64,000 nucleotides of DNA from assembly GCF_023015695.1 (NCBI RefSeq), contig NZ_JALKAS010000001.1:1364001-1428000 (forward strand), read 5' to 3'. Under the pieces are notes generated by a model. That model was not told where the DNA came from and made no database searches. It saw only the letters and a list, made by a program, of their open reading frames with translations. The translations under genes were made by a program, and so were the position numbers. Shown here piece by piece: positions 34,713-51,165 of this stretch. The stretch is from Jannaschia sp. S6380. Its GTDB lineage: Bacteria > Pseudomonadota > Alphaproteobacteria > Rhodobacterales > Rhodobacteraceae. The stretch's first letter is position 1; every line of letters begins with the position of its first letter.

Positions 34713-35686
34713 CGCGACCCCTGCCCGAAATGCGGCAGGACATCCGCGCCGAACGCTTCCAGAAACGCTTCCTGGTTGGATGCAACGTTGTGGACGTAGA
34801 TCTCGGCCGCGCCCATCTCGACGAAATCGTTCAGGCGTTCGGCATGCTCCTCCAGGCTGTCGGAAATCAGGACGGCGCCGGCCACGTCGTCGGGGCGGAC
34901 ATGCTCGGTCGCGTCCTCGAACTGCTGCGGCGTGCGGATCTCCCACGGAACGTCACCGCACAGGATGTTGGTGCGCCATTCCCGGAACGCCCCGTCGCGT
35001 GCGGCATCGTGCGTCTCATCCCAGGCGATCTTGGCCTGGATGCAGACGGGCTTGCCCTCGCCGCCGCCTTCGCGGAACGCCTCGATCACGCGGCGGACGG
35101 GCTCCCGGTCGGCGCTGCCCACTGTGATCAGCGCGTCGGCCCAGGATCCGCACCACCGCGCCGTCGCCTCGGACACGGCGGCGCCGATGATCAGGGGCGG
35201 CGTCTCGGGGCGGGTGTAGAGCTTCGCCTCCTCCACCACGATCCGGCCGCGATGCGTCACCGTCTCGCCGGACCAGAGCGCGCGGATCACGTCGACGCAT
35301 TCCTTCAGATGGGCATTGCGCTCGTCCTTGGCGGGCCAGTTCACACCCGCGATCCCCTCGTTCAGCAGCTGCCCCGATCCCAGCGTCATCCAGAGCCGTT
35401 CGGGATACATCGTCGAGAGCGTGGCACCGGCCTGCGCCAGGATCGCCGGATGATATCGCCAGCCGGGGCAGGACACGCTGCGGAAGTCGAGTTGCGTCGC
35501 CTCCATCGCGGCACCGAGCCACGACCAGACGAAGCCGGACTGGCCCTGCTCCACCGTCGACCAGGGATGGAAATGGTCCGATGCGGAGGCACAGGTGAAC
35601 CCGGCCTCCTGCGCGATCCTGGCACAGGATAGAAGCCGCGCGGGCGCGAACTGTTCATGACTGTTGTGATAGCCGATCCGGACCAT
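34709..35686 (-). CDS. LLM-class flavin-dependent oxidoreductase (TIGR03885 type)
   Basis: 325-residue luciferase-like TIM-barrel protein. The start MVRIGYHNSHEQFAPARLL at 35684-35686, with AGGAAAACG upstream, and the blocks QEAGFTCASASDHFHPWSTVEQGQSGFVWSWLGAAMEAT and YPERLWMTLGSGQLLNEGIAGVNWPAKDERNAHLKECVDVIRALW fit TIGR03885, a group described as probable non-F420 flavin oxidoreductases. Substrate unknown. It lies between two GH13 genes on the opposite strand and its stop interlocks with that of the upstream one. Confidence 0.85.
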   Translation of the reverse strand: MVRIGYHNSHEQFAPARLLSCARIAQEAGFTCASASDHFHPWSTVEQGQSGFVWSWLGAAMEATQLDFRSVSCPGWRYHPAILAQAGATLSTMYPERLWMTLGSGQLLNEGIAGVNWPAKDERNAHLKECVDVIRALWSGETVTHRGRIVVEEAKLYTRPETPPLIIGAAVSEATARWCGSWADALITVGSADREPVRRVIEAFREGGGEGKPVCIQAKIAWDETHDAARDGAFREWRTNILCGDVPWEIRTPQQFEDATEHVRPDDVAGAVLISDSLEEHAERLNDFVEMGAAEIYVHNVASNQEAFLEAFGADVLPHFGQGSR

Positions 35687-35804
35687 TGGCGTTTTCCTGT
35701 GCGTGGCGGTTGGGAATACAAGGGCTGCGCAAGGCGGGGGGTTCCCTTGCCGCCGCCGCGAACCACCATTGACCCCAGGACCGGACACGACGACGGAGGC
35801 GACG

Positions 35805-37424: not shown

Positions 37425-38411
37425 TCAGAGGCGGACGGGCGTCCCGCTTTCCAGCGACAGGGCGGCGGCATCGGCCAGAAGCTGGGCGCGAAGCCCGTCG
37501 TGGATCGTGGGCTGCGGCGGGCAGCCCTCGCGCAGGGCATCGACGAAATGCGCCATCTCCGCGAGATACGCATCGCGGTAACGTTCCAGAAAGAAATGCT
37601 GCGCGGGCGCGCGGGTGAAGCCGGAACCGGTCGCCGCTTCGACCGAATGGTCCCGGATGTTCCCGACCCGCAGCATGCCATCCGCGCCGTGAACCTCGAC
37701 CCGCTGGTCATAGCCATAGGCGGCGCGACGCGAGTTGGAGATCTGGCAGATCCGGCCGCTGGCCGTGGTGAGGATAGCCGCCGCCGTGTCGACATCGCCC
37801 GCTTGCCCGATCGCCGGATCGACAAGGGCGGCGCCGGTGGCGAAGACTTGCACAGGCTCCTCCTCCAGCAGGAAGCGCGCCATGTCGAAATCGTGGATCA
37901 TCATGTCACGGAAGATGCCGCCCGACGCGGCGATGTAGTCGAGCGGAGGCGGCGCCGGATCGCGCGAACTGATCGTGACGATTTCGACCGCTCCGATCGC
38001 GCCCGCGCGCAACTGGCCGCGCAGATGGGCGAAGCTCGTGTCGAAGCGCCGGTTGAACCCGGTCATGAAGGCGATGCCGGATTTCTCCACCGCGTCGATG
38101 CAGGTGCGAATGCGGTTGGCGGACATGTCCACCGGCTTTTCGCAGAACACCGCCTTGCCGGCCTCGGCGGCGGCATGGATCAGGTCGAAATGCGTGTCCG
38201 TGGGCGTCGCCACGATCACCGCGGCGATCTCCGGGTCGGACATCACCTGGTCGGCGGTCCGAACGGGCGCGCCCGTTCGCGCGGACAGCGCCTCGGCAGC
38301 CGCCGGCACGGCGTCGGACACGGCGCCGATCCGCGTGCCGGGCAGGCCCAGAAGGGATCCGGCGTGAACCTGGCCGATGCGGCCGCAGCCGAGGATTGCA
38401 AGGGTCGTCAT
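37425..38411 (-). CDS. iolG: Inositol 2-dehydrogenase
   Basis: 328-residue Gfo/Idh/MocA NAD-dependent dehydrogenase that oxidises myo-inositol to 2-keto-myo-inositol. Rossmann motif AILGCGRIGQVHAGSL (G8-x-G10-x-x-G13), VFCEKPVDM (EKP 91-93) with the catalytic Lys, and GGIFRDMMIHDFDMARFLL with the D-x-x-x-H pair typical of IolG; NSRRAAYGYDQRVEVHGADG also fits. It is the last gene of the leftward iol operon, 4 bases after the aldolase gene. Two further Gfo/Idh paralogues occur in the divergent operon; this one is closest to canonical IolG. Confidence 0.9.
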   Translation of the reverse strand: MTTLAILGCGRIGQVHAGSLLGLPGTRIGAVSDAVPAAAEALSARTGAPVRTADQVMSDPEIAAVIVATPTDTHFDLIHAAAEAGKAVFCEKPVDMSANRIRTCIDAVEKSGIAFMTGFNRRFDTSFAHLRGQLRAGAIGAVEIVTISSRDPAPPPLDYIAASGGIFRDMMIHDFDMARFLLEEEPVQVFATGAALVDPAIGQAGDVDTAAAILTTASGRICQISNSRRAAYGYDQRVEVHGADGMLRVGNIRDHSVEAATGSGFTRAPAQHFFLERYRDAYLAEMAHFVDALREGCPPQPTIHDGLRAQLLADAAALSLESGTPVRL

Positions 38412-38415
38412 GGCA

Positions 38416-39255
38416 TCACTCCGCGTCCGGTCTGCCGAGGGTTCGAAGGACATCGCGGGCGGCCGCGACCATCGGATCATGGGTGCGCCGCAGCAGCGCG
38501 ACGCGGTCGAACTCCTCGGGATCGGCGGCGAGAGCGCGGCGCAGGGCGGTCCCGAACGCCATCCGAAGCTCGGTCCCGATGTTGAACTTGCAGATGCGCG
38601 AGGTCCGAGCCAGCCGTGCCCGCTGCGCCGCCGGCACGCCGGATCCGCCGTGGATGACCAGCGGAATGTCCGTGACCGCCTCGATCGCACGCAGTCGGTC
38701 CTCGTCCAGGCCGCCCTCCTGCCGCTGCTGCAGATGGACGTTTCCGACGGAGATCGCCATTGCGTCCACCCCCGTCCCTTCGGCGAAGCGGGCAGCGGCA
38801 TCGGGGTCGGTCCCCGACGAACCCTCGCCCGCCGCATAGCCGACGAAACCGATCTCCCCCTCGCAGGACGCGCCGGCATCATGCGCCATCCGGGCGACCG
38901 CCGCCGTCGCCGCGATGTTCTCGTCAAGCGGCAGGCGCGAGCCGTCGAACATCACCGAGGTGAACCCCGCGTCCAGCGCGGCGCGGCAGTCCGCGGCGTC
39001 GTAGCCGTGATCCAGATGCGCCACGACCGGGATCGACGCCGCGTCGGCCAGGTGCCGGAACATCCGACCCAGCACCGGCAGCGGCGTATGGGCGCGGCAA
39101 CTGGGCCCGGCCTGCAGGATCACCGGCAGGCCCTCGGCCTCGGCGGCGGCGACATAGGCGCGCATGTCCTCCCACCCAAGCGTGACCAGGCCACCCACGG
39201 CGTATCCGCCCGCCATCGCGGGGCGCAGAACCTCGGCCAGCGTGGCCAGCGTCAT
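38416..39255 (-). CDS. Class II aldolase, IolJ-like
   Basis: 279-residue class II (zinc) fructose-bisphosphate-aldolase-family protein. Ligand motifs: VVAHLDHGYDAADC, SCEGEIGFVGYAAGEGSSGTDPDAA, DAMAISVGNVHLQ, and IPLVIHGGSGVPAAQ. In this operon it most plausibly cleaves 2-deoxy-5-keto-gluconate 6-phosphate to dihydroxyacetone phosphate and malonate semialdehyde (the IolJ step). That fits with IolC here lacking the fused DUF2090 aldolase domain that many proteobacterial IolC proteins carry. Its ATG overlaps the iolB stop (ATGA). Confidence 0.82.
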   Translation of the reverse strand: MTLATLAEVLRPAMAGGYAVGGLVTLGWEDMRAYVAAAEAEGLPVILQAGPSCRAHTPLPVLGRMFRHLADAASIPVVAHLDHGYDAADCRAALDAGFTSVMFDGSRLPLDENIAATAAVARMAHDAGASCEGEIGFVGYAAGEGSSGTDPDAAARFAEGTGVDAMAISVGNVHLQQRQEGGLDEDRLRAIEAVTDIPLVIHGGSGVPAAQRARLARTSRICKFNIGTELRMAFGTALRRALAADPEEFDRVALLRRTHDPMVAAARDVLRTLGRPDAE

Positions 39256-40106
39256 TTGAACTTGGCCACCATGTCCTTGATGCCGGGGATCGTCTCGATC
39301 TGGGCGGCATGGGTCGGCTGGAAATATTGCACCAGGCTGCGCTGCGACAACCCGCCGAGAATGGTGAAATAGTACATCTCGTATCCCGGCATCACGGCGC
39401 AGGGATGGTATCCCTTGTCGATGCAGATCGTCGATCCGTCCATCAGCTGATAGGCATCGCCCGGGCGCCCCTCCTCGCGTTGCAGGATCTGGACGCCGGA
39501 CCCGTGATCGGGCCGGAAGCGGAAATTATAGGTCTCGTCATGCCGCGTCTCGATGATCGTCCCATCCGCGTCCGCCCGGTCGGTGTCGTGCTTGTGCGCG
39601 GGAAAGCCGGACCATCCGCCCTGCCCCACGGTGAACAGTTCCGACACGAGCAGGCGGCCCACCTTGCCGTGCTGCTTCTGACCCAGGATGTGCTTGATCT
39701 TGCGGTGCGTCTTGGTGTCGTCGCTGCCGTATTGCACCAGGTCCAGCTCCGCGGTGCGGACGTCGAAGGGGTCGAGCACCTCGTCATGGCGCGCGCCGGC
39801 GATGAAGGTTTCGGTATCGCGGATGCAGGTGATCGTGGCCGTCGCACCCACGGGGACGTATACTCCCTCGGGCTCTCCATCCCAGACGTCGGTGCCGCGC
39901 TGGCCCAACCCGCCGAAATCGGCGCCTTCGATCGACACGTCGACCGTGCCCGTGGCCGGAACGATGCACGTCTCATAGCCGGGGACGCGGTATTCGAACG
40001 TCTCGCCCGCCTTCAGCTTGACGATATTGAAGTAGTTCAGCGGCACCGTCGGATCGTCGGCATCGACGATGGGCCGGTTGCGGTTGTCATGGGGCGCGAT
40101 GTGCAT
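39252..40106 (-). CDS. iolB: 5-deoxy-glucuronate isomerase
   Basis: 284-residue double-cupin enzyme converting 5-deoxy-glucuronate to 2-deoxy-5-keto-gluconate. Start MHIAPHDNRNRPIVDADDPTVPLNYFNIVKLKAGETFEYRVPGYETCIVPATGTVDV; second cupin with GQGGWSGFPAHKHDTD, IETRHDETYNFRFRPDHGSGVQ, DGSTICIDKGYHPCAVMPGYEMYYFTILGG carrying the metal His/Glu residues. GGAGAACCCG precedes the ATG at 40104-40106. It overlaps the end of iolC by 20 bases and the aldolase start by 4 bases. Confidence 0.95.
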   Translation of the reverse strand: MHIAPHDNRNRPIVDADDPTVPLNYFNIVKLKAGETFEYRVPGYETCIVPATGTVDVSIEGADFGGLGQRGTDVWDGEPEGVYVPVGATATITCIRDTETFIAGARHDEVLDPFDVRTAELDLVQYGSDDTKTHRKIKHILGQKQHGKVGRLLVSELFTVGQGGWSGFPAHKHDTDRADADGTIIETRHDETYNFRFRPDHGSGVQILQREEGRPGDAYQLMDGSTICIDKGYHPCAVMPGYEMYYFTILGGLSQRSLVQYFQPTHAAQIETIPGIKDMVAKFK

Positions 40107-41094
40107 CGGGTTCTCCTGCGGGATCTGTGGGGCCTGGATGGTCTGCCAGGAAGCGGTCCAGTTCGGCGGGCGTGGGCATCGCGGGCGCGCAGCCCGGACG
40201 ACCGACCACGATCGCCGCGCAGGCCGACGCGCGCAGCACCGCCGTGCGAAGGTCGGATCCGCCGGCGATCGACGACAGCAATCCGGCCATGAAGCTGTCG
40301 CCCGCCCCCGTCGGCTTGAGCGCGTCGACGGCATAGATCCCGGTTCGAAACTCGGCGCCGTCGGACAGGGTTACGGCGCCCCGTTCGCCCATCTTGTAGA
40401 TGACGATCCGGTCGGCGGCGGCCAGTTCGCGCGCCTTGGCGTAGCCCTGGTCCAAACCGCCGGCCATGAAGCCGAACTCCTCGTCATTGCCGACGATCAT
40501 GTCCGATTGCGCGCCGGCGTGCGACAGGACTTGCTGCGCGACCTCCGGGCCTGGCCAGCTGTAGGGGCGGTAGTCGATGTCGAAGATAATCGGCAGCCCG
40601 GCCGCGCGCGCTAGGTCGAAGGCGCGGAAGGCGGCGCTGCGCGACGGCTCGGCCGCGAAGACCGTGCCCGCCGTCACCAGTGCGCCGAACCGGGTGTAGT
40701 CCACCGCCTCGACATCTTCCGCGGTCATCTCGAAATCGGCGGCACCATTGCGATAGATGACCGACTGGTGCCCCTCGACCCGGCTTTCGTAGAGAGCCAG
40801 CGAATTGCGCGCCTCGCCGCCCACGGGCGTGACATGATCGGTGGCCACGCCGTACTGGCGCAGGCGGTTCAGGCAAAACCGCCCGACGGAGTCGTCCGAC
40901 ACCCGCGTCACGAGGCTTGCCCGCCCGCCCAACTTGACGATCCCCGCGGCCGTATTGGCCGAGGAGCCACCCATGTCGGCCGTGAAACCCTCGGCATCTT
41001 CGGTCGCGACGCCCGGGGCGGGATACAGGTCCATCCCCACGCGGCCGACGATGACGAAGCGGTTGCGGCGGATGCCATCGAGAAGCGCACTCAT
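40087..41094 (-). CDS. iolC: 5-dehydro-2-deoxygluconokinase
   Basis: 335-residue PfkB/ribokinase-family kinase that phosphorylates 2-deoxy-5-keto-gluconate. FVIVGRVGMDLYPAPGVATEDAEGFTADMGGSSANTAAGIVKLGGRASLVTRVSDDSVG contains the PfkB N-terminal signature, and DALKPTGAGDSFMAGLLSSI carries the catalytic Asp and anion-hole GAGD. It is the short, kinase-only form without the C-terminal DUF2090 aldolase domain. Start ATG at 41092-41094 overlaps the stop of the PhyH oxygenase gene (ATGA). Confidence 0.94.
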   Translation of the reverse strand: MSALLDGIRRNRFVIVGRVGMDLYPAPGVATEDAEGFTADMGGSSANTAAGIVKLGGRASLVTRVSDDSVGRFCLNRLRQYGVATDHVTPVGGEARNSLALYESRVEGHQSVIYRNGAADFEMTAEDVEAVDYTRFGALVTAGTVFAAEPSRSAAFRAFDLARAAGLPIIFDIDYRPYSWPGPEVAQQVLSHAGAQSDMIVGNDEEFGFMAGGLDQGYAKARELAAADRIVIYKMGERGAVTLSDGAEFRTGIYAVDALKPTGAGDSFMAGLLSSIAGGSDLRTAVLRASACAAIVVGRPGCAPAMPTPAELDRFLADHPGPTDPAGEPDAHRAP

Positions 41095-41930
41095 CCCCGC
41101 CCCACGGTGTTGCCGCCCGCCGCCTGGTCCAGAACCTCGGGGTAGGGAAAGTTCAGACCGATCAGCTGGCGGATGTCGTCGTCTGCCGCGTCGACGAACG
41201 AGGCCGGCAGCCCGGCGGGCAGATCCTCCATCGGCTTGACCCATTTCGGCAGGTACTGAATCAGGATCGCGCTGCGGTCACGTGCCGACCGGTTCGGCAT
41301 CGCGCAATGCCAAGTCGCGCCGTAGAAAAGCACCACATCACCCGGCGCACCGGTCATTCGCGCGCATTTCTCGTGGAATTCGTCCTCGGGGCCCGGATAT
41401 CGCAGATGCCGCTGGCTGCCGGGAACATAGGCCGTCGCGCCGCTCTCCTCGGTGAACGGGTCCAGGATGACCGAGACCTGCGCGTTCATGGGAAACGAGC
41501 CGTTCAGCCGCATCGGATGCGTGCCGGGTTCGTGGAAATCCCAGTAGGGATAGTCGATATGCGGCTCCTGCCCCGGCCCGCCGGGCAGGATGCGATTGGC
41601 CGCGATCGACCCCATGATGAACTCGCTTCCCAGAAAGCGGCGCAGGACGCGCATCAGGACGGGATGGGCCGCCATCCGCGAAAAGACCTCGCCCTTCGCC
41701 AGCAGGTTCCAAACGCGCCGCTGCAGTTCGATCCGGCCCGTCTCCTCGGCCTCGCCCTGGAAATGCGTGACCTTTCCGGGGTCGCGGTCGGACTCAGCCA
41801 TCACGATCGACCGGGCCTCGGCGATCTGGTCGTCGTCGATCAGCCCGGTGATCCGCACCGCTCCCGCCCCACTCAACAACTCCTCGGCGATCGTATCGGG
41901 GTCGGCGGTCCGGTCGGTAAAACTCCGCAT
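41091..41930 (-). CDS. PhyH-family Fe(II)/2-oxoglutarate oxygenase inside the iol operon
   Basis: 279-residue phytanoyl-CoA-dioxygenase-like protein. The iron triad is intact: EPHIDYPYWDFH gives His-124 and Asp-126, and VVLFYGATWHCAMPNRSARDRSAILIQY gives His-208, with Arg-217 or Arg-219 placed to bind 2-oxoglutarate. NGSFPMNAQVSVILDPFTEESGATAYVPGSQRHLRYPG is the typical PhyH core. It is coupled on both sides: its ATG shares a base with the iolD stop (TGATG) and its stop overlaps the iolC start (ATGA). The standard inositol pathway needs no such enzyme. I infer a role on a substrate variant, for example oxidative demethylation of an O-methyl-inositol. Confidence 0.85.
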   Translation of the reverse strand: MRSFTDRTADPDTIAEELLSGAGAVRITGLIDDDQIAEARSIVMAESDRDPGKVTHFQGEAEETGRIELQRRVWNLLAKGEVFSRMAAHPVLMRVLRRFLGSEFIMGSIAANRILPGGPGQEPHIDYPYWDFHEPGTHPMRLNGSFPMNAQVSVILDPFTEESGATAYVPGSQRHLRYPGPEDEFHEKCARMTGAPGDVVLFYGATWHCAMPNRSARDRSAILIQYLPKWVKPMEDLPAGLPASFVDAADDDIRQLIGLNFPYPEVLDQAAGGNTVGRG

Positions 41931-43792
41931 CAGATGCCCTTCCTCTGGCGCGCACGCCCGGTCTCGACTTCGCCATGAGCGGCGGCGACCTTGGGATGCT
42001 CGGTGGCATGCGGCGTCCCGACCTCCCACCAGGCATGGCCCTGGGTCGTCCAGCCCTCGTAGGCATCGACCTTCATCACGATGACGCAGGTCCGGTCGGC
42101 GGTCTGCGCCCGTTTGAATGTCTCGGCGAACTCGGCCATCGTCCCGACCGTTTCGGCACGTGCGCCCATGGCGGCGGCATGGGCGGCGAAATCGACGGTG
42201 AAGGGGTCGGGCACGGTGGGACAATCGGCAATCAGGTTGTTGAAACTCTCCAGCCCGGTGTTGTTCTGCAGCTTGTTGATGACCGCGAAGCCGCCATTGT
42301 CGAGAACGCAGACGATCAGCTTCTTGCCGGTCAGGACCGAAGAATAGATGTCGGAGTTCATCAGCAGGTAGGACCCGTCGCCCGTCAGGACGATGGTCTC
42401 TCGCTCGGGCTCGCGTTCGGCCTGCGCGATGCGCGCGCCCCAGCCGCCCGCGATCTCGTATCCCATGCAGGAGAAACCGAATTCCACGTCCACGGTGCCG
42501 ATGGCCTTCGTCTGCCAATGGGCCGTGATCTCGGCCGGCAGCCCGCCGGCCGCGGCCACGATGCGGTCGCGCGGATGGCACAGGTCGTTCACCACGCGGA
42601 TCGCCTGGGCATAGGAGTTCGGCCCATTGCCCGGTCGCGTGACGGCATCGGTATAGACGATCCATTCGGCGCGGGCATCGCGGGCGAAATCCACCCAGTC
42701 TGACGGCGCGCGATAGCCGTCCAGATCGCCCAGCGCCGCCAGCGCCAGCCTGGCATCCCCCACCACCGGAAGCGACAGGTGCTTGGCCGCGTCGTGGCGC
42801 GCGACGTTCACGCCTATGATGCGCGCATCGGGCGCGAAGGCTGTCCAGGACCCGGTCGTGAAGTCCTGCAACCGGGTGCCCACGGCCAGGATGACATCGG
42901 CGCGTTCGGCGATGGCGTTGGCGCTGTCGGAACCCGTGACCCCGACCGGCCCGATATTGAGGGGATGGTGCTGCAACAGGTTTGCGCGTCCGGCGATGGT
43001 CTCGACCACGGGGATGTCATGCGCCTCGGCGAAGCGGGTCAGCTCCTCCGTGGCGCCCGAATACTGCACGCCGCCGCCCGCGATGATCATCGGGCGCGCC
43101 GCCCCGCGCAGCAGGTCGCGCGCCTGGGCCAGTTCGCCTGCATCCGCGGCCTGACGGCGGATCCGGTGCACACGCTTGTCGAAGAATCGGGCCGGATAGT
43201 CATAGGTCCAGCCCTGCACGTCCTGCGGCAGGCCGATGAAGGCGGGGCCGCAATCCGCCGGATCCAGCATGGTGGCCAGTGCGGCCGGAAGCGACTGGAG
43301 GACCTGTGCCGGATGGGTGATCCGGTCCCAGAACCGCGTCACGGCGCGGAATGCGTCGTTCACCCCCAACGTCGGGTCGCCGAAATGTTCCAGCTGCTGG
43401 AGAACGGGGTCGGGCAGCCGCGTGACATAGGTATCACCGCAGAGCATAAGAAGCGGCAGCCGGTTGGCATGGGCCAGCGCCGCGCTGGTCAGCAGGTTCG
43501 CCGTCCCAGGCCCCGCGCTCGCCGTGCAGAACATGAACCGCCGACGCAACCACTGCTTGGCATAGCCCGCGGCGGCGAACCCCATCCCCTGCTCGTTCTG
43601 CCCGCGGTAGAGCGGCAAGACGTCCCGCGCATCCCAGAGCGCCTCGCCCAGACAGGTGACGTTGCCATGGCCGAAGATCCCGAAACCGCCGCCGCAGATG
43701 CGGACCTCCTCGCCGTCGATCTCGATATACTGGGCGGCGAGAAACCGGACGATCGCCTGCGTCGTGGTCAGTTTCACTATCTCGTTCGCCAT
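41930..43792 (-). CDS. iolD: 3D-(3,5/4)-trihydroxycyclohexane-1,2-dione hydrolase
   Basis: 620-residue thiamine-diphosphate enzyme that opens the ring of the diketone intermediate to 5-deoxy-glucuronate. N-terminal TPP domain: TTTQAIVRFLAAQYIEIDGEEVRICGGGFGIFGHGNVTCLGEAL and YRGQNEQGMGFAAAGYAK with the catalytic Glu; C-terminal TPP-binding motif VLTGDGSYLLMNSDIYSSVLTGKKLIVCVLDNGGFAVINKLQNN. First gene of the leftward operon; a candidate promoter (TTGCAA at 43879-43884, TATCCT at 43857-43862, 16-base spacer, minus strand) overlaps the LacI-type palindrome. Confidence 0.95.
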   Translation of the reverse strand: MANEIVKLTTTQAIVRFLAAQYIEIDGEEVRICGGGFGIFGHGNVTCLGEALWDARDVLPLYRGQNEQGMGFAAAGYAKQWLRRRFMFCTASAGPGTANLLTSAALAHANRLPLLMLCGDTYVTRLPDPVLQQLEHFGDPTLGVNDAFRAVTRFWDRITHPAQVLQSLPAALATMLDPADCGPAFIGLPQDVQGWTYDYPARFFDKRVHRIRRQAADAGELAQARDLLRGAARPMIIAGGGVQYSGATEELTRFAEAHDIPVVETIAGRANLLQHHPLNIGPVGVTGSDSANAIAERADVILAVGTRLQDFTTGSWTAFAPDARIIGVNVARHDAAKHLSLPVVGDARLALAALGDLDGYRAPSDWVDFARDARAEWIVYTDAVTRPGNGPNSYAQAIRVVNDLCHPRDRIVAAAGGLPAEITAHWQTKAIGTVDVEFGFSCMGYEIAGGWGARIAQAEREPERETIVLTGDGSYLLMNSDIYSSVLTGKKLIVCVLDNGGFAVINKLQNNTGLESFNNLIADCPTVPDPFTVDFAAHAAAMGARAETVGTMAEFAETFKRAQTADRTCVIVMKVDAYEGWTTQGHAWWEVGTPHATEHPKVAAAHGEVETGRARQRKGI

Positions 43793-43867
43793 CTTCTGAA
43801 CCCATCCCCGTCGCGGTCGACCTTGCCGATTTGCATCTTGCGTGGTCTCGAATCCGAGGATACGAAT

Positions 43868-43885
43868 TTTGCAACCGGTTGCAAA
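43868..43885. promoter_or_regulatory. LacI-type operator between iolD and the divergent operon
   Basis: TTTGCAACCGGTTGCAAA is a perfect 18-base palindrome of the LacI-family operator type (central CCGG, flanking TTGCAA half-sites). It overlaps the candidate iolD -35 region on one strand and lies directly after a candidate promoter (TTGCGT-N17-TACGAA, 43838-43866) on the other, 26 bases before the Gfo/Idh ATG. The same core recurs at 48165-48180 beside the lacI-family gene. Confidence 0.75.
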
Positions 43886-43910
43886 CCTAATTCCAGGCAC
43901 GGGATACGAC

Positions 43911-45032
43911 ATGACGGATATCGGCATCGGGATCGTCGGCGGCGGGTACATGGGCAAGGCCCACGCCGTGGCGATGTCGGCCGTTGCCGCCGCCTTCGAT
44001 ACGGCCCTGCGACCGCGGCTGGAAATGATCTGCGCGCGTTCCGCCGCATCGGCCGAAACCTATCGTGCGGCCTACGGCTTCGCGCGGGCATCGGACGACT
44101 GGCGGAAGCTAGTGGCCGATGATGCGGTCGAGGCCGTCATCATCGCCTCGCCGCAGGAGACGCACCGCGCCATCGCCGAAGCCGCCCTCGCGCGCGGCAA
44201 ACCCGTGTTCTGCGAAAAGCCCCTGGGCGCGACGGTCGAGGACAGCCGCGCGATGGCACACGCCGCACGGGGCAAGGTCGCGATGATCGGCTTCAACTAC
44301 ATCCGCACGCCGGCCAGCCAGTTCGCCCGCAAGCTGATCGCGGACGGCACGATCGGCGAGGTCACCTGGTTCCGGGGCGAACATGTCGAGGACTTCCTGG
44401 CCGATCCGGACACGCCCGCCAATTGGCGCACGCGCGGCCCTGCCAACGGCACCATGGGCGATCTGGCCCCGCACATGATCAACGGCGCGCTCGGCCTGAT
44501 CGGGCCGATCGCCACCCTGATCGCCGAGGTCGAGACGGTTCATCCCCGGCGTCCCGGCGGCGCGGTCGACAATGACGACCACGCCCAGGTGATGTGCCGC
44601 TTCGCGAACGGGGCAATGGGACAGATGTATTTCAGCCGCGTGGGGCACGGCCGCAAGATGGGCTATGCCTATGAGGTGACGGGCACCAAGGGCGCGATCC
44701 GGTTCGACCAGGAGGATCAGAACGCCCTCCACCTCTACCTGGCGTCGGACCCCGAACCGATCCGCGGCTTCCGCAAGATCCTGACAGGTCCGGCACATCC
44801 CGACTACGCCGCGTTCTGTCAAGGGCCGGGTCACGGCACCGGCTACCAGGACCAGATCATCATCGAGGCGCGCGACTTCCTGCAGGCCATCGCGACCGGC
44901 AAGCCGGTCTGGCCGACGTTCGAGGACGGTCTGGCCGTGCACGAGGTCGTCGCCGCCGCCCAGAATTCGGCTGCGCGCCGGGCATGGGTCGACGTGCCCC
45001 AGCCCAACCACATTCCAGAGGCCGCCCAATGA
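43911..45032 (+). CDS. Gfo/Idh/MocA family oxidoreductase (inositol-cluster paralogue 1)
   Basis: 373-residue NAD(P)-dependent dehydrogenase. IGIGIVGGGYMGKAHAVAM is the Rossmann motif, AVIIASPQETHRAIAEAALARGKPVFCEKPLGATV carries EKP, and GTMGDLAPHMINGALGLIG has the D-x-x-x-H catalytic pair. First gene of the rightward operon, 26 bases after the LacI-type palindrome; its stop overlaps the next gene (ATGA). It probably oxidises an inositol isomer (scyllo- or D-chiro-inositol) or a related sugar; substrate inferred only from context. Confidence 0.85.
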   Translation: MTDIGIGIVGGGYMGKAHAVAMSAVAAAFDTALRPRLEMICARSAASAETYRAAYGFARASDDWRKLVADDAVEAVIIASPQETHRAIAEAALARGKPVFCEKPLGATVEDSRAMAHAARGKVAMIGFNYIRTPASQFARKLIADGTIGEVTWFRGEHVEDFLADPDTPANWRTRGPANGTMGDLAPHMINGALGLIGPIATLIAEVETVHPRRPGGAVDNDDHAQVMCRFANGAMGQMYFSRVGHGRKMGYAYEVTGTKGAIRFDQEDQNALHLYLASDPEPIRGFRKILTGPAHPDYAAFCQGPGHGTGYQDQIIIEARDFLQAIATGKPVWPTFEDGLAVHEVVAAAQNSAARRAWVDVPQPNHIPEAAQ

Positions 45033-45934
45033 CCATCAGAATCGGCAACGCCCCCTGTTCCTGGGGGATCGAATTCCCCAGCGATCCCGCCTACCCGAGC
45101 TGGCAATCGGTCTTGGATCAATGTGTGGCCGCCGGTTTCGACGGGATCGAGCTTGGCCCCATCGGGTACATGCCCGAGGATCCCGCCATTCTCGCCCCGG
45201 CGCTGGCCGAACGCGGGCTGGAGTTGATCGGCGGCGTGGTGTTCCGCCCCTTTCACGACCCCGATCAATGGCAGGACGTCCTCGATGCAAGTCGGCGGAC
45301 CTGCGCGGCCCTGGCAGCGCATGGCGCGCCGCATCTGGTTCTGATCGACAGCATGTCGCCGCGCCGCGCGGCCACCGCCGGACGCGCGGCCGAGGCCGAG
45401 CAGATGGAGGCCGCTGAGTGGCGAGCGTTTCGCGACCGCATCGCAACCATTGCCCGCATGGGGCACGAGGAATACGGATTGACGGTCGCCATCCATGCCC
45501 ATGCGGCGGGCTTCCTAGATTTCGAACCCGAGCTGGAGCGCCTGTTGGACGAGGTCGACGACACCATCCTGAAGATATGTCTGGACACCGGGCACCATTC
45601 CTATGCCGGCTATGATCCCGTCGCCTTCATGGACCGCCATATCGAGCGGATCTCCTACATGCATTTCAAGGATATAGACCCCGAAGTTAAAGCGGATGTC
45701 GTCGCCAACCGGACGGGGTTCTATAAGGCCTGCGGCCAAGGCATCTTCTGCAACCTGGGTCAGGGCGATGTAGATTTCCCGGCTGTTCGGCAGCATTTGC
45801 TGGATGCGGGGTTCAGCGGCTGGTGCACGGTCGAGCAGGACTGCGATCCGTCCCTTCCGGGCACGCCGTTGGAAGACGCGCGCGCGAACCGCGCCTATCT
45901 GGCGTCGATCGGTTTCGACGGGGCCACGGCGTGA
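45029..45934 (+). CDS. Xylose-isomerase-like TIM barrel, IolE/IolI-type (inosose dehydratase or isomerase)
   Basis: 301-residue AP-endonuclease-2/sugar phosphate isomerase-epimerase fold. RIGNAPCSWGIEFPSD, AAGFDGIELGPIGYMPEDPAIL, GGVVFRPFHDP, LTVAIHAHAAGFLDFEPELERLL, ICLDTGHHSYAGYDPVAFM, YMHFKDIDPEV, and WCTVEQDCDP contain the metal-binding Glu/Asp/His residues. As no other candidate dehydratase is in the cluster, it may supply the IolE step (2-keto-myo-inositol to the diketone), but an IolI-like inosose isomerase is equally compatible. Start and stop overlap both neighbours. Confidence 0.82.
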   Translation: MTIRIGNAPCSWGIEFPSDPAYPSWQSVLDQCVAAGFDGIELGPIGYMPEDPAILAPALAERGLELIGGVVFRPFHDPDQWQDVLDASRRTCAALAAHGAPHLVLIDSMSPRRAATAGRAAEAEQMEAAEWRAFRDRIATIARMGHEEYGLTVAIHAHAAGFLDFEPELERLLDEVDDTILKICLDTGHHSYAGYDPVAFMDRHIERISYMHFKDIDPEVKADVVANRTGFYKACGQGIFCNLGQGDVDFPAVRQHLLDAGFSGWCTVEQDCDPSLPGTPLEDARANRAYLASIGFDGATA

Positions 45935-47085
45935 ACCGGCTGCGCTGGGGCATGATCGGGGGCGGCGAAGGCAGCCAGATCGGGCCGGCCCACCGCCTGG
46001 GTGCCGGGCTCGACGGGCTGTTCACCTTCGCGGCCGGTGCGCTGGATCACCGGGCCGACGCTGGCATCGCATATGGCCGTTCGCTGGGCCTCGGCGACCG
46101 GGCCTATGGCAGTTGGCAGGAGATGCTCGCGGCCGAGGCGGCGCGCGACGACCGGGTGGACCTTGTCACGGTCGCCACGCCGAACGCCACGCATTTCGAG
46201 ATCACCCGCGCCTTCCTCGAGGCCGGCTTCCACGTCCTGTGCGAAAAGCCGATGACGATGTCCGTCGAGGAGGGCGAGATCATCGTCGAGACGGCACGCC
46301 GGACGGGACGCATCTGCGCGGTGAACTACGGCTACAGCGGCTATTCTCTGGTGCGTCACATGCGGGCGATGGTGGCGCGCGGCGACCTTGGGCGGGTGCG
46401 TCTGGTCAAAGCCGATTTCGCCCACGGACATCACGCGGATGCCGGCGATGCCGACAATCCGCGGGTGCGCTGGCGCTACGATCCGGCGCAGGCCGGCGTG
46501 TCGGCGCAGTTCGCCGATTGCGGCATCCACGCGCTGCACATGGCCAGCTTCGTCACCGGTCAAGAGGTCACCAAGCTCAGCGCCGACATCGTGTCCTGCA
46601 TTCCGTCGCGCACCCTCGAGGATGACGCCATGGTCGACTTCCGCATGGATGGCGGTACGGTGGGCCGCCTCTGGACGTCCTCGATCGCGCTCGGGCGGCA
46701 GCACGGGCTGGCGATCGAGGTGTTCGGCGAAACGGGCGGCCTGCGCTGGAGCCAGGAGCAGCCAAACCAACTCTATCACATGCCGCTCGGCGGTCGCCTG
46801 CAGGTGATCGAGCGGGGCGAGGCGGATCTGTCGCCCGAGGCGGACCGGACGTCGCGCGTAACTGTCGGACATGCCGAGGGGATGCCGCTGGCCTTCGCCA
46901 ACATCTACAAGGATCTGGCCGAAGCGATCACCGCGACGAAGGAAGGGCGCGCGATCGACCCCGCGGCCGACCTGTATCCGCGCGCCGAAGATGGGCTGCG
47001 GTCGATGGCCGCCGTTGCCGCCGTGGCCGAGTCGGGGCGCAACGACGGCGCGTGGCGCGATGCCCGCCCGCCGATGTTCCGTTAG
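45931..47085 (+). CDS. Gfo/Idh/MocA family oxidoreductase (inositol-cluster paralogue 2)
   Basis: 384-residue dehydrogenase starting at a GTG (45931-45933) that overlaps the stop of the TIM-barrel gene. RWGMIGGGEGSQIGPAHRLGAGLDGLFTFAAGAL is a variant Rossmann motif seen in a longer Gfo/Idh subgroup, VATPNATHFEITRAFLEAGFHVLCEKPMTMSVEEG carries EKP, and SAQFADCGIHALHMASFVTG has the D-x-x-x-H pair. Third Gfo/Idh in the region and clearly distinct from the other two. Substrate unknown. Its stop interlocks with that of the lacI-family gene (TTAG). Confidence 0.85.
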   Translation: MNRLRWGMIGGGEGSQIGPAHRLGAGLDGLFTFAAGALDHRADAGIAYGRSLGLGDRAYGSWQEMLAAEAARDDRVDLVTVATPNATHFEITRAFLEAGFHVLCEKPMTMSVEEGEIIVETARRTGRICAVNYGYSGYSLVRHMRAMVARGDLGRVRLVKADFAHGHHADAGDADNPRVRWRYDPAQAGVSAQFADCGIHALHMASFVTGQEVTKLSADIVSCIPSRTLEDDAMVDFRMDGGTVGRLWTSSIALGRQHGLAIEVFGETGGLRWSQEQPNQLYHMPLGGRLQVIERGEADLSPEADRTSRVTVGHAEGMPLAFANIYKDLAEAITATKEGRAIDPAADLYPRAEDGLRSMAAVAAVAESGRNDGAWRDARPPMFR

Positions 47086-48080
47086 GGCCGCGGGCGCAGC
47101 GTCGCGCGCTCGACCACCTGGCACGGGAAAAGCCGGGCCTCGGGGTACCGGTCCGGGTCCTCCAGCATCGCACACATCAGCTCGACCGAGGAAGTCACGA
47201 TCTGCCGGATCGGCTGGCGGATCGTGGTCAGTGCGATGTTCTCCCAGCCCGACATTTCCATGTCGTTGAACCCGATGAGGCCGACATCGTCCGGCACACG
47301 CCGACCGGTGTCCCGGATCGCACTGAGCGCACCGATGGACAGGACGTCGTCGCCGCAAAAATAGGCCTCGGCCAGTTCGCCGGAGGCAAGGCGTTGCATC
47401 TCGCGCCGCCCGGCCTGAAACGAATAGGCATCGGCGAAGGAGTGGTCGACGGCGACCTCCGGCGCCGCCGACAACGCCTGCAGGAAGCCGTGCAGGCGGT
47501 CCTGCGTCGACGTCGCCGCCTGCGGCCCGCCCAGGAACGCGACCTTGCGATAGCCCCGTTCGATCAAAGCGCGCGCAGCCATCCGACCGGCGGCGACGTT
47601 GTCGATGCTGACGACGTGGACGTCGGGGCTGCTTGAATAACGACCGAAGGTGCTGACCACCGGGATGCCCTTGTCGCGGAACGCCTTGGCGAAGGCGGGC
47701 GGCAGGGTCGAGGAGGCGACCACCACCCCGTCGACGGAATACCGATGAAGCATCTGGACGGAATGGTCGGGATCCGTCTCGTCGCTGAGGTTGACCAGCA
47801 GGGGTCGCAGCCCGCGATCCTGCAGGCCACGGGTGAATAGGTCGAACACCTCCAGGAAGATCGGATTGTGGAAGTTGTTCGAGATCAACCCGATCAGCTT
47901 GGTGCGCCGCGTCGTCAGGCTCCGGGCGAGGAAGTTCGGCTGGTATCCGAGTTCGGCCGCCGCCTTTTCGACCTTCCGGCGCATCTTGCCGGAGACAGAC
48001 GCACCGTCGGTGAACGTCCGCGAGACCGCGGATGGCGAGACCCCCGCCCTGATCGCCACGTCCTTGAGAGTTGCCGGCAT
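47082..48080 (-). CDS. LacI-family regulator, probable inositol repressor
   Basis: 332 residues: LacI helix-turn-helix PATLKDVAIRAGVSPSAVSRTFTDGASVSGKMRRKVEKAAAELGYQPN plus hinge LARSLTTRRTKLIGLISNNFHNP, then a periplasmic-binding-like effector domain (LRPLLVNLSDETDPDHSVQMLHRYSVDGVVVASS, FCGDDVLSIGALSAIRDTGRRVPDDVGLIGFNDME). The ATG at 48078-48080 has GAGGGGCGAC upstream. It lies between the catabolic genes and the ABC importer, with the palindrome TTGCAACCGGTTGCAA 85-100 bases upstream of its start, so autoregulation and control of both iol operons and the importer are likely. Confidence 0.88.
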   Translation of the reverse strand: MPATLKDVAIRAGVSPSAVSRTFTDGASVSGKMRRKVEKAAAELGYQPNFLARSLTTRRTKLIGLISNNFHNPIFLEVFDLFTRGLQDRGLRPLLVNLSDETDPDHSVQMLHRYSVDGVVVASSTLPPAFAKAFRDKGIPVVSTFGRYSSSPDVHVVSIDNVAAGRMAARALIERGYRKVAFLGGPQAATSTQDRLHGFLQALSAAPEVAVDHSFADAYSFQAGRREMQRLASGELAEAYFCGDDVLSIGALSAIRDTGRRVPDDVGLIGFNDMEMSGWENIALTTIRQPIRQIVTSSVELMCAMLEDPDRYPEARLFPCQVVERATLRPRP

Positions 48081-48164
48081 GTCGCCCCTCGGTTCCGTCG
48101 CCCCCCTCTCCCATGTGGGCGGGGTCCGGTCCATCCCGCCGATCAAACCCGCATCCACAGCAAA

Positions 48165-48180
48165 TTGCAACCGGTTGCAA
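48165..48180. promoter_or_regulatory. Second LacI-type operator, between lacI and the ABC importer
   Basis: TTGCAACCGGTTGCAA is identical to the central 16 bases of the palindrome at 43868-43885. It sits between the lacI-family start (48080, minus) and the binding-protein ATG (48268, plus). Two identical sites in the two divergent regions of one pathway are strong evidence for a common regulator. Confidence 0.75.
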
Positions 48181-48267
48181 AAATGATGATTCCGTGGTTG
48201 GATGCCCGTGGGAGGCGGCGAAAGTGCGCACTCATGCCGAAGAACCGGTATCCTTGGGAGGACTCAC

Positions 48268-49218
48268 ATGAAATCGATCATCAAGACGATGGCGCTGACG
48301 GCCGCGGTCGCCGCCGCGCCCGTGATAGCGGCCGCGGATGGCCATGGCGACGACCTGAACTACATCCTGGTCAGCCATGCGCCCGATAGCGACAGCTGGT
48401 GGAACACCATCAAGAACGGCATCGCGCTTGCAGGCGAGCAGCTCGACGTGACCGTCGAGTACCGCAATCCGCCCACCGGCGATCTGGCCGACATGGCGCG
48501 GATCATCGAACAGGCCGCCGCCTCGGACCCCGACGGCATCATTACCACGCTGGCCGACTATGACGTGCTTTCCGGTCCGATCCGCGCGGCCGTCGACCAG
48601 GGCATCGATGTCATCATCATGAACTCCGGCACGCCCGAGCAGGTGCGCGAACTGGGCGCCCTCATGTTCGTGGGCCAGCCCGAATACGATGCCGGCCTCG
48701 CCGCAGGTCAGCGCGCCGCCGCCGACGGTGTCGAAAGCTTCGTCTGCGTCAACCACGTCATCTCCAACACGGTCGTCGCCGAACGGTGCCGCGGCTTCGC
48801 CGACGGGCTGGGCGTCGAACTCGGCGACAGCATGATCGATTCGGGTCAGGACCCGGCCGAGATCAAGAACCGGGTGACCGCCTACCTGACCGCCAACCCC
48901 GAGACCGACGCCATCCTGACGCTCGGTCCGACCTCGGCCGACCCGACCATCCAGGCCGTCAAGGAGATGGGGCTGGATGGCGAGATCTATTTCGGCACGT
49001 TCGACCTGGGCACCGAGATCGTGAACGCCATCAAGGACGGCACGATCAACTGGGGCATCGACCAGCAGCCCTTCCTGCAGGCCTATCTGCCGGTCGTCGT
49101 CCTGGCCAATTACGACCGCTACGGCGTCCTGCCCGGCAACAACATCAACTCCGGCCCCGGCTTCGTGACCGCCGACGGTCTGGAGAAGGTCGAGGAGTTC
49201 GCGGGCGAGTTCCGCTGA
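48268..49218 (+). CDS. Sugar ABC transporter substrate-binding protein (inositol-cluster)
   Basis: 316-residue periplasmic binding protein of the ribose/galactose type. Signal peptide MKSIIKTMALTAAVAAAPVIAAA; mature domain DLNYILVSHAPDSDSWWNTIKNGIALAGEQLDVTVEYRNPPTGDLADMARIIEQAAASDPDGIITTLAD, MNSGTPEQVRELGALMFVGQPEYDAGLAAGQRAAADG, GTFDLGTEIVNAIKDGTINWGIDQQPFLQAYLPVVVL. GGGAGGACTC precedes the ATG. First gene of the CUT2-type importer; myo-inositol is the probable ligand from context. Confidence 0.9.
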   Translation: MKSIIKTMALTAAVAAAPVIAAADGHGDDLNYILVSHAPDSDSWWNTIKNGIALAGEQLDVTVEYRNPPTGDLADMARIIEQAAASDPDGIITTLADYDVLSGPIRAAVDQGIDVIIMNSGTPEQVRELGALMFVGQPEYDAGLAAGQRAAADGVESFVCVNHVISNTVVAERCRGFADGLGVELGDSMIDSGQDPAEIKNRVTAYLTANPETDAILTLGPTSADPTIQAVKEMGLDGEIYFGTFDLGTEIVNAIKDGTINWGIDQQPFLQAYLPVVVLANYDRYGVLPGNNINSGPGFVTADGLEKVEEFAGEFR

Positions 49219-49270: not shown

Positions 49271-50389
49271 ATGGCCGACACGCCGCAAGTCGCGCTCGAC
49301 GAGCGCGTAAAGGAAATCTCGCCCCTGCGGCGTGCCCTGATCCGACCCGAGCTGGGCGGCATCATCGGGGCCGTCGCCGTCTTCACCTTCTTCGCCCTGC
49401 TGGCGCATGACAGCGGCATGTTCAACGCGCAGGGTGTGATGAACTGGTCCACCGTCTCGGCGCAGTTCATGATCATCGCCGTGGGCGCATGCCTTCTGAT
49501 GATCGCGGGCGAATTCGACCTGTCGGTCGGATCCATGATCGGTTTCGCCGGCATGATGGTGGCGATCTTCGGCGTCACGCTCGGATGGCCGATGTGGCTG
49601 GCCATCCTCGTGACCTTCGCCATCTGCATCGCGTTCGGCGCGCTCAACGGCTACATCGTCGTGCGGACCGGCCTGCCCAGTTTCATCGTGACGCTGGCGA
49701 CGCTGTTCATCCTGCGCGGCTTCACCATCTTCATTCCGCAGACCATCGAGCGGAAGACGATCATCGGCGGCATCCGCGAGGCGGCCGAGGGCGACTGGCT
49801 GGCCCCGATTTTCGGCGGCAAGATCGGCGGAAGCCTGTTCCAGTGGCTGGGCGACGCCGGCGTCATCGGCACGTTCAGCCGCGGCAACCGCGCCGGACAG
49901 CCCGTCGTGGACGGCATCCCGATGCTGATCGTCTGGGCGATCGTGCTGGTGATCTTCGGACATATCCTGCTGACGCGGACGCGGTTCGGCAACTGGATCT
50001 TCGCGGCCGGCGGCGACGCGCAGGCGGCGCGCTATGCCGGCGTTCCGGTCAACGCCGTCAAGATCCGCATGTTCATGTTCACCGCCTTCTGCGCCACGGT
50101 CTTCGCCGTCTGCCAGGTGATGGAGTTCGGGTCGGCGGGCGCCGACCGCGGTCTGCTGAAGGAGTTCGAGGCGATCATCGCCGTCGTCATCGGCGGCGCG
50201 CTGCTGACGGGGGGCTACGGCTCGGTCATCGGGGCAGCGCTGGGCGCGCTGATTTTCGGCGTGGTGCAGCAGGGGCTGTTCTTCGCCAACGTCGAATCCT
50301 CGCTCTTCCGGGTGTTCCTTGGGGTGATCCTGCTGCTGGCCGTGATCCTGAACACATATATCCGCCGCCTCATCACCGGAGAACGCTGA
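49271..50389 (+). CDS. Sugar ABC transporter permease (CUT2 type)
   Basis: 372-residue inner-membrane permease with about ten hydrophobic segments, of the BPD_transp_2 (RbsC-like) family: FMIIAVGACLLMIAGEFDLSVGSMIGFAGMMVAI (EFDLSVGS is the family signature), LNGYIVVRTGLPSFIVTLATLFILRGF, GGDAQAARYAGVPVNAVKIRMFMFTAFCATVFAV, and VIGGALLTGGYGSVIGAALGALIFGVVQQGLFF. A longer loop after residue 155 (TIERKTIIGGIREAAEGDWLAPIFGG) is present. Its TGA shares a base with the ATPase ATG (TGATG). Confidence 0.92.
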   Translation: MADTPQVALDERVKEISPLRRALIRPELGGIIGAVAVFTFFALLAHDSGMFNAQGVMNWSTVSAQFMIIAVGACLLMIAGEFDLSVGSMIGFAGMMVAIFGVTLGWPMWLAILVTFAICIAFGALNGYIVVRTGLPSFIVTLATLFILRGFTIFIPQTIERKTIIGGIREAAEGDWLAPIFGGKIGGSLFQWLGDAGVIGTFSRGNRAGQPVVDGIPMLIVWAIVLVIFGHILLTRTRFGNWIFAAGGDAQAARYAGVPVNAVKIRMFMFTAFCATVFAVCQVMEFGSAGADRGLLKEFEAIIAVVIGGALLTGGYGSVIGAALGALIFGVVQQGLFFANVESSLFRVFLGVILLLAVILNTYIRRLITGER

Positions 50390-51165
50390 TGGATCCGATC
50401 ATCCGCATGAAGGACATCCAGAAGCATTTCGGCTCGGTCATTGCGCTGGCCGGCGTCACGATCGACTTCTACCCGGGCGAATGCCATTGCCTTCTGGGGG
50501 ACAACGGCGCGGGCAAGTCGACCTTCATCAAGACGATGTCGGGCGTGCATCAGCCCACCTCGGGCGAGATCCTGTTCGAGGGGCGGCCGATGCAATTCGA
50601 CGACCCCCGCGACAGCATCGCCGCCGGGATCGCGACCGTTTATCAGGACCTGGCGATGATCCCGCTGATGTCCGTCAGCCGGAACTTCTTCATGGGCAAC
50701 GAGCCCATACGCCGGATCGCGGGCCTGCCCCTGTTCGACCACGACCATGCCAACGACGTGACCATGACCGAGATGCGCAAGATGGGCATCAACCTGCGCG
50801 GCCCCGACCAGGCCGTGGGTACGCTGTCGGGCGGCGAGCGGCAGACGGTCGCCATCTCGCGCGCGGTCTATTTCGGGGCGAAGGTCCTGATCCTGGACGA
50901 GCCGACCTCGGCCTTGGGCGTGCGCCAGACGGCCAACGTGCTGGCCACGGTCGACAAGGTCCGCAAGCAGGGCATCGCGGTCGTGTTCATCACCCACAAC
51001 GTCCGGCATGCGATGGCAATCGGCGACCGCTTCACCGTTCTGAACCGCGGCAAGACCTACGGCACGGCGAACAAGGGCGAGATTTCGCCCGAGGAATTGC
51101 AGGACATGATGGCCGGGGGCCAGGAACTGGCCGCGCTGGAGGGATCGCTGGGCGGCACCGTCTAG
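50389..51165 (+). CDS. Sugar ABC transporter ATP-binding protein (single domain)
   Basis: 258-residue ABC ATPase. Walker A GDNGAGKST (37-45 region), Q-loop TVYQDLAMIPLMSVSRNFFMGNEP, signature LSGGERQTVAISRA, Walker B VLILDEPTSALGVRQTANVL, and H-loop FITHNVRHAMAIGDR. It is the short single-domain form, as in the FrcA-type fructose/inositol importers, not the duplicated RbsA form, so it presumably works as a homodimer. The SALG replacing SALD in the D-loop is typical of that subgroup. Its stop interlocks with the L2HGDH-like gene (CTAG). Confidence 0.92.
   Translation: MDPIIRMKDIQKHFGSVIALAGVTIDFYPGECHCLLGDNGAGKSTFIKTMSGVHQPTSGEILFEGRPMQFDDPRDSIAAGIATVYQDLAMIPLMSVSRNFFMGNEPIRRIAGLPLFDHDHANDVTMTEMRKMGINLRGPDQAVGTLSGGERQTVAISRAVYFGAKVLILDEPTSALGVRQTANVLATVDKVRKQGIAVVFITHNVRHAMAIGDRFTVLNRGKTYGTANKGEISPEELQDMMAGGQELAALEGSLGGTV

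Follow-up and report, generated by a model that had tools for sequence, protein, structure and literature searches.

The locus described here lies in a stretch of 64,000 nucleotides of Jannaschia sp. S6380 (the whole of it is called the window), where a gene for an oxygenase of the PhyH family stands between iolD and iolC, two genes of inositol catabolism. This 279-residue form of the window is called, together with its orthologs, SHORT; a second PhyH family of about 390 residues is called LONG. The three genes at the center of the locus are the following:

41930..43792, minus strand: iolD, THcHDO hydrolase (TIGR04377, 780.6 bits against a cut-off of 715; start taken at MANEIVKL)
41091..41930, minus strand: SHORT, PhyH-family Fe(II)/2-oxoglutarate (2OG) oxygenase, 279 residues and stop (H124, D126, H208, R219; predicted model)
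40087..41094, minus strand: iolC, 5-dehydro-2-deoxygluconokinase (TIGR04382, 308.4 bits against 300)

At the junction between iolD and the oxygenase gene (..CTGATGCGG..) a single A is common to the TGA of iolD and the ATG of the PhyH gene, a 1-nt overlap, and at the junction with iolC (..GGGATGAGTG..) the PhyH TGA and the iolC ATG overlap by 4 nt. A previous sequence-only reading of this DNA had described these TGATG and ATGA overlaps, a PhyH gene between iolD and iolC, and an intact iron triad with a 2OG arginine, and each of these elements is indeed present. When the PhyH start was placed by alignment in 59 loci (some species being counted twice), the gap from the iolD stop to the PhyH start was at most 4 nt in 57 of them and exactly -1 in 34. 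Because of this spacing and of the conserved gene order reported below, the place of SHORT at iolD/iolC is more than chance.

The sole Pfam domain of the SHORT protein is PF05721 (PhyH; 84.3 bits against a cut-off of 22), a family whose members include phytanoyl-CoA dioxygenase, EctD, PhnY and KanJ. The residues His124, Asp126 and His208, which make up the HxD...H iron triad, and Arg219 are unvaried in 39 of 39 aligned relatives, at identities down to 59%. Three arginines past His208 are candidates for 2OG binding; since Arg219 is invariant, while Arg217 varies and Arg214 is outside the invariant columns, Arg219 was taken as the 2OG-binding residue. SHORT is presumably catalytically active. 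The AlphaFold model built from the alignment of relatives has a mean pLDDT of 79.3, with values below 50 at positions 123-126 and 136-145, i.e. at or near the iron site. Its top PDB match in Foldseek is the 2OG oxygenase SptF (E 2.9e-17, 20% identity, TM-scores 0.74/0.77), and the predicted fold is the double-stranded beta-helix of 2OG oxygenases. SHORT thus shares with PF05721 the domain, the predicted fold, the triad and the putative 2OG arginine, but differs in that it reaches no curated NCBIfam subfamily of 2OG oxygenases, the sole match being TIGR04436 with 27 bits against 200. An attempt to deduce the substrate from the solved relatives led nowhere. It should be mentioned that intermediate relatives, with 35-36% identity over about 200 residues, occur in another genome of the family of the window (L089, G286:C1:132291-132896) and on a Streptantibioticus cattleyicolor plasmid (NC_016113.1:179426-180001).

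Regarding the neighborhoods of the orthologs, analyzed for the best 80 of 99 relatives, SHORT lies within an iol cluster in 56 loci (55 from alphaproteobacteria and one from a gammaproteobacterial bin, L063) and outside iol genes in 24 (six from Luteibacter and 18 from Burkholderiales). If the oxygenase were no more frequent in iol operons than at other sites, this would speak against the link with inositol; these loci do not show such a distribution. The order is iolD-PhyH-iolC in 55 of the 56 in-cluster loci, the other one (L010) beginning at the PhyH gene with iolC next to it, and iolB and an aldolase gene are found downstream wherever the contig extends far enough. Most loci have constant spacing; L048, of Jannaschia marina, presents about 1 kb extra between iolB and the aldolase gene. 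The carriers of SHORT include Ruegeria halocynthiae and R. conchae (L012, L017), both culturable marine bacteria. The Luteibacter proteins are 68-70% identical to that of the window, as close as many alphaproteobacterial copies. In all six loci their gene adjoins a relative (53-56% identity) of GFO3, a Gfo/Idh/MocA dehydrogenase of the window, and in five of them a LacI-family regulator 48-50% identical to that of the window is located nearby (48% in L050), the sixth, L056, being on a short contig. Luteibacter thus has three genes of the cluster as a group of their own, separate from the remaining iol genes. Among the 18 Burkholderiales loci, one type of LacI regulator was observed in nine and one type of short-chain dehydrogenase/reductase (SDR) in nine, some of these 5-9 kb away.

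All 24 non-alphaproteobacterial genomes with SHORT that were searched (L063 included, L075 omitted) contain an iolD over the cut-off, which in Luteibacter lies elsewhere. The raw base rate of iolD in Burkholderiaceae is 76 of 195 in a set that holds many small genomes, so the 24 of 24 supports the link with iolD without measuring it. A search of plasmids gave SHORT relatives in 101 records, all under 60% identity.

To place SHORT among close relatives of the host, 295 genomes of the family of the window, one per genus, were searched with cut-offs of at least 66% identity for SHORT and at least 68% for the window type of iolD. SHORT is present in eight genomes and the window-type iolD in 62; all eight are within the 62, and each of the eight loci reads iolD-PhyH-iolC. 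Besides these eight, 32 of the 62 carry LONG anywhere in the genome and 22 carry neither form, which is as expected of a peripheral enzyme; 54 are without SHORT. In a set of 100 iolD-centred stretches, chosen from the iolD sites found in these genomes, SHORT was located between iolD and iolC in four, and iolC came directly after iolD in the other 27 of the window type. When the presence of SHORT was mapped on a tree of 83 iolD proteins, 16 changes were required, at least four of them forced by supported branches, which indicates that SHORT has been repeatedly gained or lost at a single site.

Considering all iolD types, the gene was found in 151 of the 295 genomes: in 68 of the 72 that have a PhyH of either form against 83 of the 223 that have none (odds ratio 28.7, p 2.6e-19). 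For the control gene xylA, present in 179 of the 295, the odds ratio was 2.8 with PhyH and 3.3 with iolD, which means that some association arises from genome content by itself. Nevertheless, the link between PhyH and iolD persists in the genomes with xylA and in those without it (odds ratios of 19 and 48, respectively). The conserved gene order and this controlled test rule out that SHORT is a chance neighbor. A core step of the pathway is also ruled out, since 22 of the 62 genomes lack both forms, and so is a strict lock to the iol operon, since 54 of the 62 are without SHORT and 24 of the 80 loci are outside iol genes. For these reasons SHORT is accessory and not a core step, probably a peripheral entry enzyme. 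The sequence-only reading had spoken of an oxygenase locked into an inositol operon: its inositol link is well supported by the co-occurrence with iolD and by the conserved place, whereas "locked into" was too strong.

The remaining genes of the cluster in the window are listed below:

37425..38414, minus strand: iolG, inositol 2-dehydrogenase, start inferred (TIGR04380, 420.9 bits against 355)
38416..39255, minus strand: class II aldolase, probably DKGP aldolase with the role of IolJ inferred (PF01116, 249 bits)
39252..40106, minus strand: iolB-like gene of the KduI/IolB family, start inferred (PF04962, 242 bits; TIGR04378, 139.1 bits, under 205)
43842..45032, plus strand: GFO3, Gfo/Idh/MocA dehydrogenase of scyllo-inositol/L-glucose type (Pfam; 5ya8, 314 bits; true start probably later)
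44984..45934, plus strand: IolE-like TIM barrel (TIGR04379, 175 bits, under 290; 3cny, IolE, 103 bits)
45823..47085, plus strand: GFO2, second Gfo/Idh/MocA dehydrogenase (true start probably later)
47082..48170, minus strand: LacI-family regulator, between GFO2 and the binding protein (PF00356, 54 bits; PF13377, 101 bits; start probably near 48080)
48202..49218, plus strand: CUT2 ABC substrate-binding protein, rhizopine-binding-like (PF13407; NF052284, 283 bits, under 420; best PDB match 4ru1, 142 bits)
49271..50389, plus strand: ABC permease (PF02653, 148 bits)
50389..51165, plus strand: ABC ATP-binding subunit, approximate start within the open reading frame 49489-51165 (NCBIfam ATP-binding models from about residue 301 of that frame)

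Since the genome has a single iolD over the cut-off and its best iolE relative adjoins it, this is the inositol cluster of the genome and not a spare copy. As for its assignment, both iolD and iolC exceed their curated cut-offs. The genome has no iolE over the curated cut-off (175 against 290 for the best) and the iolB of the window does not reach its own (139.1 against 205); IolE and IolB are both divergent forms in this type of cluster. The one match to the MMSDH/iolA model over the cut-off is found far away, at C1:1076195. Compared with the myo-inositol operon (iolABCDEG/J), the cluster has iolD, iolC and iolG over their cut-offs together with iolB-like, iolE-like and aldolase genes, but differs in the oxygenase gene between iolD and iolC, the sub-cut-off iolE and iolB, and the distant iolA. 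Among PDB entries the binding protein matches 4ru1 best, presumably a structure with bound myo-inositol. No MocB-type binding protein over the curated cut-off was found in the cluster; NF052284, the best NCBIfam model, gave 283 against 420.

GFO3 aligns over 352 residues with 5ya8, the scyllo-inositol dehydrogenase of Paracoccus laeviglucosivorans, and keeps all of K106, R178, D191, H195 and H318, whose roles are taken from the available text on that enzyme (PMC5969746). It therefore resembles that subfamily, and the GFO3 relative of L050, from Luteibacter, also keeps the five residues. The Paracoccus system differs in that the available text on it mentions no oxygenase (PMC5969746). Rhizopine catabolism (mocCABRDEF) has in common with the window a related binding protein and Gfo/Idh/MocA dehydrogenases, and rhizopine use also needs iol enzymes; it is described, in the part of the source at hand, with a ferredoxin oxygenase complex and not with a PhyH enzyme (PMC5789663).

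The LONG family was reached through weak matches of the family-wide search with SHORT. The two forms have 27-30% identity over the domain, LONG being about 110 residues longer, and hhalign aligned 216 columns at a probability of 98%; none of the six LONG members scanned had an NCBIfam match. LONG occurs in 64 of the 295 genomes, 60 of which have iolD against 91 of the other 231; the remaining four LONG genomes are draft assemblies, 71-96% complete and split into 410-530 contigs. In L198, L202, L228 and L294 the gene is located between iolE and iolB, inside canonical iol operons, and in six further stretches of the 100 (L200, L232, L261, L264, L267 and L279) it lies at most about 8 kb from iolD. 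Twenty LONG-centred loci were drawn from the best-scoring places outside the earlier stretches; six of them (L328, L331, L332, L338, L343 and L344) have genes of an iol cluster nearby, and in 12 a LacI gene adjoins LONG, mostly without iol genes in the vicinity. On plasmids LONG was found in 47 records, with LacI adjoining in five of the six examined (Sinorhizobium, Agrobacterium, Ruegeria, Caballeronia, Tritonibacter), and on a Shinella plasmid a CUT2 transporter comes after it, with a binding protein 64% identical to that of the window. The LONG query matches at least 8,000 proteins at E up to 0.001, candidate members of the family of which the best 120 were examined; one match is from Phaeobacter inhibens (P0159).

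In summary, LONG belongs to the same superfamily as SHORT and has the same association with iolD, but differs in length, in its low identity and in its frequent location away from iol genes. The SDR beside LONG of S. meliloti (L348:8959-11346) has 70-71% identity with SDRs located in the vicinity of SHORT at L067:8746-9567 and L074:7716-8555, and a shared SDR type may be a sign that both forms do the same job. The same S. meliloti SDR is only 27% identical to that of L065, and the SDRs near LONG in Caballeronia and Agrobacterium (25-32%) do not closely match those beside SHORT. None of the eight SHORT genomes contains LONG. Among the 62 genomes the chance of zero overlap is 0.0017 (hypergeometric, relatedness ignored); a pair test on a tree of 35 genomes found two independent pairs on supported branches and six on all branches, which are too few. 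It is conceivable, although we would lean against it, that SHORT and LONG can replace each other as oxidative gateways (O-demethylases or hydroxylases) into the inositol catabolism of alpha-, beta- and some gammaproteobacteria. If so, the name phytanoyl-CoA dioxygenase would mask a general, so far unrecognized way for bacteria of soil and sea to use pinitol and other modified inositols as food.

Our proposal for the window, which we consider about evenly balanced as a whole, is that an Fe(II)/2OG oxygenase with an intact active site acts as an accessory entry enzyme of inositol catabolism and probably makes modified inositols, for instance the O-methylated ones of plants, available to the cell as food. 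PhyH enzymes hydroxylate C-H bonds, and on an O-methyl group this results in formaldehyde and a free alcohol. According to this proposal, the CUT2 ABC system would import the modified inositol, which after hydroxylation by the oxygenase would collapse to plain inositol or inosose. Oxidation of the ring would then be the task of GFO3 or IolG, and the rest of the breakdown that of the IolE-like protein, IolD, IolB, IolC and the aldolase. With a mono-O-methyl-inositol the most likely chemistry would be 2OG + O2 + inositol-OCH3 -> succinate + CO2 + formaldehyde + inositol. That the substrate is a cyclitol we regard as fairly probable; oxidative O-demethylation is our first choice among the reactions, at somewhat less than even chances, because some root exudates are rich in O-methyl-inositols and the cluster has uptake genes as well as three dehydrogenases that could take the product. 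In the available data, pinitol is the most concentrated component reported for the root exudate of Mimosa pudica, at 145 uM (PMC5789663), and in clover exudate it is close to myo-inositol (12.6 against 10.7, values from column one of the available table; PMC8386446). The extension to O-methyl-inositols or another cyclitol, already suggested by the sequence-only reading, fits the accessory distribution and the pairing with a scyllo-inositol-type dehydrogenase, while its substrate and reaction are our conjecture. If the proposal is true, many proteins now called phytanoyl-CoA dioxygenase would gain a testable function.

Some of the published data touch on this proposal. A study of Ensifer adhaerens OV14 on roots of Arabidopsis lists, in its available part, nine genes with lowered expression at every time point between day 1 and day 7 (PMC6637203, Table 1). 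They comprise the genes for a rhizopine-binding protein, a Gfo/Idh/MocA protein and inositol 2-dehydrogenase, then iolC, two ABC and two phage genes and, finally, OV14_RS14055, named "phytanoyl-CoA dioxygenase" and listed by the authors under phytanoyl-CoA hydroxylation. Six of these nine correspond to inositol/rhizopine catabolism or sugar ABC transport. In rhizospheres, R. leguminosarum induced the inositol transporter and not the inositol catabolic genes, which helps neither way, and the main text of that paper, as available, does not contain "phytanoyl" (PMC3333776). The words dioxygenase, pinitol and methyl are likewise absent from the available main text of a survey of inositol gene clusters (PMC9430895). 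In the portion of the open-licence literature at hand, no oxygenase of the SHORT kind is described in an inositol cluster, which is no proof of absence, nor is any bacterial enzyme named there that makes O-methyl-inositols accessible to the iol pathway.

Several observations weigh against the proposal. OV14_RS14055 is no more than a candidate member of SHORT or LONG (proteins named as Ensifer are 78-82% identical to LONG of S. meliloti, some on chromosome-sized contigs of 3.5-4.2 Mb). In addition, seven of the 18 Burkholderiales loci have, in the available stretch, neither of the partner types searched, SDR or LacI, and there SHORT may have no partner or a different substrate. GFO3 is also found in clusters without PhyH, hence the two are not coupled, and the closest solved structures are about 20% identical to SHORT, the substrate being unreadable from them.

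Other explanations were weighed against O-demethylation. SHORT could hydroxylate a deoxy-inositol, such as quercitol, viburnitol or the cyclohexanetetrols of algae, to an inositol usable by GFO3 or IolG. C-H hydroxylation is the commonest PhyH chemistry, algae and plants contain cyclitols of the quercitol and cyclohexanetetrol type, and many hosts of SHORT are marine genera; no feature of the cluster, however, separates this route from O-demethylation, and we rate it as unlikely. About as unlikely is an action on another sugar or derivative handled by a dehydrogenase of scyllo-inositol/L-glucose type, with the inositol genes as lower pathway or regulatory neighbor. It would fit the oxidation of L-glucose by 5ya8, the relative of GFO3 (available text of PMC5969746), and the LacI beside LONG in 12 of the 20 loci centred on it, most of them without iol genes nearby, but PhyH goes with iolD much more strongly than with xylA, and SHORT overlaps both iolD and iolC.

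A still less probable substrate is an amino-cyclitol, i.e. scyllo-inosamine or its O-methyl ether, rhizopine, attacked by oxidative deamination or O-demethylation. Kanamycin B dioxygenase, whose chemistry is oxidative deamination, is among the PDB relatives of SHORT (E 4.3e-6 to 6.3e-6), and the best NCBIfam model of the binding protein is the rhizopine one; that model remains under its cut-off, however, the best PDB match is 4ru1, and rhizopine catabolism as described in the available source uses mocDEF and the ferredoxin oxygenase complex (PMC5789663). Finally, a role outside carbon catabolism, in repairing or diverting a side product of the pathway, would agree with the 54 genomes without SHORT and the 22 without either form, but is similarly improbable, since in our judgement the repeated gain and loss (16 changes, at least four forced) fits a diet gene better.

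Elsewhere in the window, at 34709-35788 on the minus strand, there is a gene for an LLM-class oxidoreductase that matches TIGR03885 ("flavin_revert") with 459 bits against 398.7, flanked by two genes of the alpha-amylase family on the opposite strand.

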